A stretch of DNA of 64,000 nucleotides from an uncultured Bacteroidota bacterium (GTDB lineage Bacteria > Bacteroidota > Bacteroidia > Flavobacteriales > Flavobacteriaceae). Both the position numbers and the translations under genes were made by a program. How positions within the stretch are numbered: the stretch's first letter is position 1; each line of letters starts with the position of its first letter. Shown here in pieces: positions 62,146 through 63,831 of this stretch. The notes under the pieces were generated by a model, which was not told the DNA's origin, made no database searches, and was given only the letters and a program-made list of their open reading frames with translations. The stretch covers positions 1 through 64,000 of the forward strand of contig CACLCL010000004.1 of assembly GCA_902605445.1 (NCBI GenBank), given 5' to 3'.

Positions 62146-62153
62146 TAACTTTG
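62146..62153 (+). promoter_or_regulatory. Bacteroidota -7 like element TAACTTTG before the coiled-coil/zapA genes
   Basis: Matches TAnnTTTG, 4 nt before ATG 62158. Confidence 0.4.
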
Positions 62154-62157
62154 TAAA

Positions 62158-62445
62158 ATGCATAGAACGAAAGAATTACTTCAAAAATTAGATGAAAAAA
62201 TTAAATTCCATTTAAGTGAATTTAATAAATTAAAAAGCATAAACGAAAAATTAAAATTAAAAAATAATCAATTGCTTGAGTCTAATTTGACAATTCAAAA
62301 TAGACTCAATGAAATAGAAAAAAATTTTAAAGCATTAAAAATTGCTAATACAATATCAATAGACGAAAAAAATATAAATGAAACAAAAAATGAAATAAAT
62401 ACATTGATTAAAGAGATTGATCTCTGTATTTCACAACTATCATAA
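62158..62445 (+). CDS. Small coiled-coil protein adjacent to zapA
   Basis: 95 aa, heptad-rich EKLKLKNNQLLESNLTIQNRLNEIEKNFKAL; 6-nt gap to zapA. Confidence 0.75.
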   Translation: MHRTKELLQKLDEKIKFHLSEFNKLKSINEKLKLKNNQLLESNLTIQNRLNEIEKNFKALKIANTISIDEKNINETKNEINTLIKEIDLCISQLS

Positions 62446-62451
62446 TATGCT

Positions 62452-62739
62452 ATGAACGATAAATTAAAAATAAAAATACCTATTGCAAATAGGGTATATC
62501 CAATGATTATAGAACCGTCAAAAGAACAGGGACTAAGACTTGCATCTCAAAAAATAAATAATCTTATAAAAAAATTTGAACAAAATTATTCAGTTCAAGA
62601 TAAACAGGATGCTCTTGCTATGTGTGCTTTGCAGATAGCTTCGAGTAGAATCCAAAAAAAAATTGATAATGATGAAACATTAGATACAATCGAGATGAAA
62701 ATTAATGATCTAATTGATATTTTTGAAAAAAATATATAA
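62452..62739 (+). CDS. zapA: Cell division protein ZapA
   Basis: KLKIKIPIANRVYPMIIEPSKEQGLRLASQKINNLIKKFEQNYSVQDKQDALAMCALQIAS. Confidence 0.9.
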   Translation: MNDKLKIKIPIANRVYPMIIEPSKEQGLRLASQKINNLIKKFEQNYSVQDKQDALAMCALQIASSRIQKKIDNDETLDTIEMKINDLIDIFEKNI

Positions 62740-62752
62740 TTTTACAATATAT

Positions 62753-62899
62753 GCCTGCATAACCTTTTTTTAAACTCAACACTATATAATTATAAAGGGT
62801 GAGTTAATTCTGTTAAATCGTGCTATATTTTGATAGATTTTTGATCAGAGTTGTAGCCCTAATCCTGTTTAAATGGAGTTTATACAAGTTTATGTGGGC
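62753..62899 (+). ncRNA. ssrS: 6S-like RNA (SsrS)
   Basis: By-eye fold: 10-bp closing stem GCCTGCATAA (62753-62762)/TTATGTGGGC (62890-62899); AAACTC (62772-62777)/GAGTTT (62876-62881); bubble 62778-62795 / 62861-62875; arm AGGG/CCCT, AATTCTG (62806-62812)/CAGAGTT (62846-62852), AAATC/GATTT; followed by ATTTTTAT. Directly downstream of zapA. Confidence 0.68.
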
Positions 62900-62919
62900 T
62901 ATTTTTATAACAATTCAAA

Positions 62920-63831
62920 TTACTTTACTTTATTTTCAGATCTTGGGTGATATTTATTCATAACATTAAGTAAAGCCTTATTATCGAGATGCATATAAAT
63001 TTCTGTTGTAGTTATACTTTGATGCCCAAGTAATTGCTGAATCGATTTTAGGTCTGCACCATTTTCTAAAAGATGAGTGGCGAATGAATGACGAAAGCTA
63101 TGAGGAGAAATTTTTTTGTTTATTTTTGATTTTAATACCAGTTTTTTAATAATTGTAAAAATCATTTCACGTGATAATTTCGATCCTCTTCTGTTAAGAA
63201 ATAGCGTGTCTTTGTACTCTTCTTTAATTTTTAATTTACCTCTTGAATTTAAAATATAGCTGTTTATACTTTTTTTATTTACTTCACTTATTGGTACTAG
63301 TCTCTGTTTATTTCCTTTTCCGGTAACAATAATAAAGTCTTCACTAAAAAAAAGATTTGAAATCTTTAGATTAATTAGTTCGCTGACCCTAAGTCCACAA
63401 CCATAAAGTGTTTCAATTATTGCGATATTTCTTTCAGATTCCGGCTTTTCTTTATTTATATTATTTATTATTCTATCAATTTCTTCAATTGAAAGAATAT
63501 TAGGGAGTTTTTTTTCAATTTTAGGTAATTCAATATTGTCAACAGGGTTATTACTTATAATATTTTCAAAAATTAGATAATCGTAAAAATTTCTAATACC
63601 CGAGATTATTCTAGATTGCGATGATGATTTTAATTTTTTAGAAATATCATAGATAAACTCTTTAATTAAATCAGTAGTTACTTCATCTGGTTTATATTTA
63701 TTTTTTTCTATTTGAAGAAAGTTTAAAAATTTATTTAAGTCGTTTTCGTAACTCTTGATAGAATTAGTGCTAAGTCCTCTCTCAATATTCAGATAATTTT
63801 TAAAATTATTTATAGAATCTTGCCAATTCAT
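62920..63831 (-). CDS. Tyrosine recombinase XerC/XerD
   Basis: YGCGLRVSELINLKISNL, TGKGNKQRLVPIS, SPHSFRHSFATHLLENGADLKSIQQLLGHQSITTTEIYMHL. Confidence 0.93.
   Translation of the reverse strand: MNWQDSINNFKNYLNIERGLSTNSIKSYENDLNKFLNFLQIEKNKYKPDEVTTDLIKEFIYDISKKLKSSSQSRIISGIRNFYDYLIFENIISNNPVDNIELPKIEKKLPNILSIEEIDRIINNINKEKPESERNIAIIETLYGCGLRVSELINLKISNLFFSEDFIIVTGKGNKQRLVPISEVNKKSINSYILNSRGKLKIKEEYKDTLFLNRRGSKLSREMIFTIIKKLVLKSKINKKISPHSFRHSFATHLLENGADLKSIQQLLGHQSITTTEIYMHLDNKALLNVMNKYHPRSENKVK

Follow-up and report, generated by a model that had tools for sequence, protein, structure and literature searches.

The window, a 64,000-nt stretch of DNA from an uncultured member of the Flavobacteriaceae, carries a 6S RNA gene of roughly 150 nt, of the 6S-Flavo family, at 62753-62906 on the forward strand. 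We put the probability of this reading at about 0.93. The gene extends from the base of a closing stem to a terminal run of T residues, and its precise 5′ and 3′ termini are inferred. RNAs of the 6S class mimic an open promoter and sequester the sigma-containing RNA polymerase holoenzyme, which is released when the polymerase makes a short product RNA (pRNA) from the 5′ strand of the bubble. The original prediction, that a 6S RNA lies downstream of zapA, is borne out by a match to Rfam family RF01685 above its cut-off, by a fold more stable than that of shuffled sequence (z of -3.2), by covariation among relatives and by the adjacency to zapA itself. The accompanying description of a divergent primary sequence, with the novelty that this implied, did not hold up: the window copy is an ordinary member of an RNA family published in 2010, and the RNA is not new. 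Its interest lies in what comparison across the family reveals rather than in the window copy.

An Rfam scan of the entire window returned RF01685 (6S-Flavo) as the sole match above cut-off, at 62774-62881, with 98.6 bits (gathering score 85) over the full length of the model (positions 1-108). This family was defined in 2010 by Weinberg et al., who took 6S-Flavo to share the function of a previously validated class (PMC2864571). The original prediction had looked instead to RF00013, the canonical 6S RNA (ssrS), and the scan found no match to that model up to E = 10. RF00013 is the wrong model here because the 6S RNA of this group has its own Rfam family; the window copy shares overall architecture and a zapA neighborhood with canonical 6S, but no sequence-structure match within that limit. 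The Bacteroidales 6S model (RF01693, Bacteroidales-1) aligns to the same place with 16.8 bits (E = 9), below its cut-off of 60. Its layout is alike, the blocks ACTCA.C, C.TGT and GGAGTTT are held in common, and the RF01693 model independently finds the flavobacterial 6S loci of six genomes (G021, G294, G564, G165, G870 and G709). Since it does so, RF01685 and RF01693 look like one RNA seen at different distances.

We folded the segment 62740-62915 and compared it with 200 dinucleotide shuffles. Its minimum free energy is -38.8 kcal/mol, against a shuffle mean of -27.9 (sd 3.39), giving a z of -3.22, and one shuffle in the 200 folded equally well. The stems that had been proposed by eye for the gap between zapA and xerD are found at their places in the minimum-energy structure. 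An outer closing stem joins GCCTGCATAA (62753-62762) to TTATGTGGGC (62890-62899) with two G-U pairs, and its 3′ half, followed by a T-run at about 62902-62906, doubles as an end resembling an intrinsic terminator. Further in, TAAACTC (62771-62777) pairs with GAGTTTA (62876-62882) as the inner closing stem, helix 2, with the proposed AAACTC/GAGTTT pairing (62772-62777 with 62876-62881) inside it. The central bubble, expected to measure about 18 and 15 nt, is exactly that size in the fold, with a 5′ strand at 62778-62795 and a 3′, non-template strand at 62861-62875. Beyond it, AGGG(T) at 62796-62800 pairs with (G)CCCT at 62856-62860 to form the base of the terminal arm (62796-62860), the counterpart of the upstream promoter duplex.

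Comparison with relatives shows that this structure greatly exceeds chance expectation. We aligned 65 family members that are less than 90% identical to one another and counted the 43 pairs of the full-length structure. Standard pairs fill 95.8% of the pair cells, a percentage biased upward by the structure having been read in part off L002, one of the 65. That bias does not explain the two-sided changes, which occur in 23 of the 43 pairs, so that the covariation on which the proposed stems had been made to depend is present; they number 272 cells as against 63 in shuffles. The covariation score is 0.370; shuffles reach 0.191, and sliding the partners by one to three columns gives no more than 0.097. 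The segment is shown to be under strong selection for RNA structure. The outer closing stem (helix 1) is among the best supported, with two-sided changes in 7 of its 11 pairs; one pair is UA in 46 relatives, CG in 14 and UG in 5, and another is AU in 49, GC in 12 and GU in 4. In helix 2 the pairs bordering the bubble are invariant, while those further out covary. Taken together, the two helices form a long closing stem of 24 pairs, 11 with two-sided changes and 94.5-97.8% of cells paired. Helices 3, 4 and 6 of the terminal arm show two-sided changes in 12 of 15 pairs; the short apical helix 5 is the only stem without covariation among the 65 relatives. The asymmetric 18/15-nt bubble is kept throughout the alignment. 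The Rfam model ends at the borders of the bubble, whereas the actual RNA has an additional covarying closing stem of about 20 bp, and the comparison therefore yields a full-length structure that the public model lacks.

The same alignment bears on a different fold. AACTCA (62773-62778), part of which lies in the closing stem, could instead pair with TGAGTT (62800-62805), which would break up the closing stem and make the RNA an internal switch. The isolated 5′ piece does fold in this way, and TGAGT is highly conserved though mostly unpaired in the main fold. However, none of the alternative pairs shows two-sided changes, the covariation score of 0.014 is that of shuffles (mean 0.013), and the percentage paired does not exceed theirs. 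Where column 38 has changed to C, the closing-stem partner has followed (CG in 14 relatives) and the alternative partner has not. We consider such a switch unlikely. The hairpin in the 5′ strand, TAAACTCA with TGAGTTTA, was set aside as unsupported because it is conserved without covariation. Elsewhere, three loci of another family (f83; L137, L140 and L128) repeat in their 5′ strand the 3′ sequence of the closing stem, GGAGTTTAGC or close to it, which would allow GCTAAACTC to fold as a hairpin of as many as 9 bp inside that strand.

RF01685 is found throughout the window's family. It matches 243 of 251 genomes sampled from the family and 210 of the 211 with completeness of 90% or more and contamination of 5% or less. 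All 19 members of the genus have it, the window's own genome included, as do 24 of 31 relatives overall; across the order it matches 106 of 248 sampled genomes, mostly weakly outside the family. This distribution by itself points to Flavobacteriaceae as the most likely host family. 6S RNA has been retained even by a flavobacterium with a small genome (1.02 Mb assembled, 68% complete). One locus in another family (L017) gives a weak match of 38 bits with no zapA upstream, and is possibly a divergent 6S RNA or a chance match.

The gene almost always lies beside zapA. In the window it directly follows zapA (62452-62739, forward strand; PF05164, 58.5 bits, 8.3e-16), and a ZapA reading frame on the same strand ends directly upstream of the 6S RNA in 166 of 167 loci; the median distance between the zapA stop codon and the ACTCAAC block is 53 nt. 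In gamma-proteobacteria, too, 6S RNA (ssrS) lies in the neighborhood of zapA. Directly upstream of the window's zapA is a 95-aa reading frame, orf95 (62158-62445, forward strand), whose coiled-coil-like product has no Pfam match and is possibly a ZapB-like partner of ZapA. Downstream, xerD (62920-63831), encoding a tyrosine recombinase of the XerD type, converges on the 6S gene. In 123 loci the first downstream reading frame is instead an rny-like gene on the same strand as the 6S RNA, its protein identified by resemblance alone (a membrane start and a long charged helix). The replacement of this gene by a convergent xerD occurs in part of the genus (the window, L046, L047, L051, L052, L059 and L063).

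Because the segment follows immediately on the stop codon of zapA and closes with a stem and T-run, and because xerD converges on it in the window, it might be thought merely the 3′ untranslated region and terminator of zapA, or a bidirectional terminator shared by zapA and xerD, rather than a trans-acting RNA. A terminator, however, has no need of a covarying arm, nor of conservation in the 18/15-nt bubble and its single-stranded AAC and C.TG. The RF01685 score above cut-off and the usual downstream gene, which reads in the same direction in 123 loci, also speak against this explanation, and we hold it to be very improbable.

How the bubble of such an RNA would mimic a promoter in Bacteroidota had been left as an open question, to which comparison supplies a partial answer through the 3′ strand. 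Bacteroidota promoters carry the -7 box TAnnTTTG at -12 to -5 (PMC9723704). At the junction of arm and bubble the window has TAATCCTG (62860-62867, forward strand), which we propose as a mimic of this box from its family distribution and spacing. T62860, at -12, is paired at the top of the arm, and A62861, at -11, is the first unpaired base. The boundary between -12 and -11 would thus coincide with the fork between double and single strand, as it does in a real open promoter. Across the family the 3′ bubble strand reads TAAACTTG, TAAACCTG, AAAACTTG or, as in the window, TAATCCTG; most copies have TAAACYTG, from which the window copy differs. All 115 family loci with a recognizable box share A(-11), T(-6) and G(-5); since the final TG served to locate the box, only A(-11) counts as an independent observation. 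T(-12) is present in 94 of the 115, and the box lies 7-8 nt from the downstream duplex (GAGTTT) in 111.

The likeness is imperfect. Position -8 is almost always C in the family where the promoter consensus has T, TG is absent from the expected place in the bubble in four loci, and by a rough estimate an equally good match to some 8-mer of the bubble would arise by chance several percent of the time. Other families of the order have lost the TA half (AAATCGTG, CGATCCTG) and keep mainly C(-8), T(-6) and G(-5). In f83 the RNase P promoters are still of the TAnnTTTG type although the bubble box has no TA half, so that only the C..TG half is conserved more widely. On the template side, single-stranded AAC (62778-62780 in the window) within the ACTCAAC block is invariant in 163 of 163 loci. 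Counted from G(-5), the C of AAC falls at +1 or +2, and a pRNA is predicted to begin GUUGAGUUUA. It is plausible that the 3′ bubble strand imitates the Bacteroidota -7 box at about the right distance from the invariant AAC, and the comparison suggests which bubble bases may stand in for this unusual promoter element.

By analogy with known 6S RNAs, 6S-Flavo would fold like an opened promoter and bind RNA polymerase carrying the primary sigma factor, with TAATCCTG on the 3′ bubble strand taking the place of the non-template TAnnTTTG and T62860/A62861 that of the -12/-11 fork. Polymerase would be sequestered in this way as growth slows. When nucleotides return, it would transcribe a short pRNA with the 5′ bubble strand as template, a role for this strand that is likewise drawn from known 6S RNAs. 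The product is predicted to read 5′-GUUGAGUUUA..., with initiation at C62780 or no more than two nucleotides away, and pRNAs in relatives to begin GUUGAGUUU. Its synthesis would open the closing stem and release the polymerase.

Published work on the phylum is compatible with such a cycle. Both 6S RNA and pRNAs have been detected in B. thetaiotaomicron (PMC7366714), 6S RNA is among the transcripts detected in F. psychrophilum (PMC9723704), and the 6S survey of Wehner et al. (2014) is said to predict pRNAs for Bacteroidetes, as cited in PMC7366714. A literature search found no binding data for the 6S-Flavo family. That the RNA instead binds core polymerase or another protein, as actinobacterial Ms1 with its 6S-like fold can bind the core enzyme (PMC9130861), seems to us more improbable still than a terminator, given that the pRNAs of the related B. 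thetaiotaomicron 6S RNA imply use as a template by initiating polymerase (PMC7366714) and that the promoter-like fork fits the holoenzyme.

The comparison also bears on the expression of the RNA itself. The promoter suggested upstream of the window copy, TAATTTTA at 62737-62744, is present in the sequence but falls one base short of TAnnTTTG. An exact match, TATTTTTG (62718-62725, forward strand), lies inside the end of zapA, 27 nt before the stem; as a candidate 6S promoter it is weak because exact TAnnTTTG occurs about once per kb on this strand. Another, TAACTTTG (62146-62153, forward strand), stands 5 nt before the orf95 start codon at 62158 and is a candidate promoter for orf95, zapA and the 6S RNA together. 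Allowing at most one mismatch to TAnnTTTG, we found no conserved local promoter just upstream of the 6S RNA in the family: matches cluster only within the T-rich closing stem, ending 3 to 17 nt before ACTC, and not at any one upstream position.

In most relatives the gap that separates zapA from the 6S stem does contain the sequence A(A/C)GTTC(T/A)TTAAAAT (L002, L028, L052 and L128 are examples). Written as G[TCG]TC[TA]TT, the element is found in 118 of 166 gaps when the 6S strand is searched and in none of the 166 on the opposite strand, with about 1.5 expected from neighboring sequence; the genomes counted are related to one another, and these are not independent events. Its first base usually lies 0-5 nt past the stop codon of zapA. 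It is present in 12 of 19 loci of the window's genus, in 90 of 101 family loci outside that genus, and in 18 of 46 from the rest of the order. The window's own gap (62740-62752) is short and AT-rich and has no such element, nor do several of its genus mates (L046-L050 and L063); the genus is losing it.

The element resembles boxA, the NusB/S10 site of rRNA leaders, given for gamma-proteobacteria as GYTCTTTAANA in a study whose authors did not consider non-coding RNAs (PMC5725501). It is also like the rRNA leaders of the same genomes: all 12 16S leaders that we read hold a GTTC- or GATC-type element (AAGTTCATTGACATATTG, GAGTTCTTTACAATATTG and variants), some of them deviating from the pattern and recognized by inspection alone. 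Of 16 RNase P RNA genes, none is preceded by the element, and most have a TAnnTTTG-type promoter instead. Reading GTTCTTT as a -33 promoter element is not preferred, because in rRNA leaders it lies downstream of the -7 box and because it is absent from the 16 RNase P genes. The five copies of Bacteroidales 6S that we read differ: they lack a boxA-like element and have a TAnnTTTG-like promoter immediately upstream. At five loci (L197, L199, L202, L204 and L206) an element like GTTCTTTGAAAAT precedes tmRNA by 14-15 nt, or by 70 nt in L199.

The likeness points to NusB/S10 antitermination at this putative site and, joined to the lack of a conserved local promoter, suggests that the 6S RNA is transcribed as part of a zapA-6S transcript. 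We tentatively propose, at somewhat below even odds, that in Flavobacteriales 6S RNA comes from a zapA-6S(-rny) transcript under rRNA-style antitermination. In this proposal a boxA-type site just after the zapA stop codon, where ribosomes leave, would shield the untranslated 6S RNA from premature termination. Where the element has been lost, as in the window's genome and several of its genus mates, transcription may start from a local promoter, TATTTTTG. A search of the literature for boxA together with 6S RNA found nothing related, and the element before 6S in most of the family may be new, being apparently undescribed. If functional, it would tie the output of 6S RNA to the same antitermination machinery as rRNA. 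Four loci of a further family (f2; L015, L016, L141 and L153) have in its place, right after zapA, a short inverted repeat, GGGAA...TTTTCCC, which is possibly a terminator or a processing hairpin.
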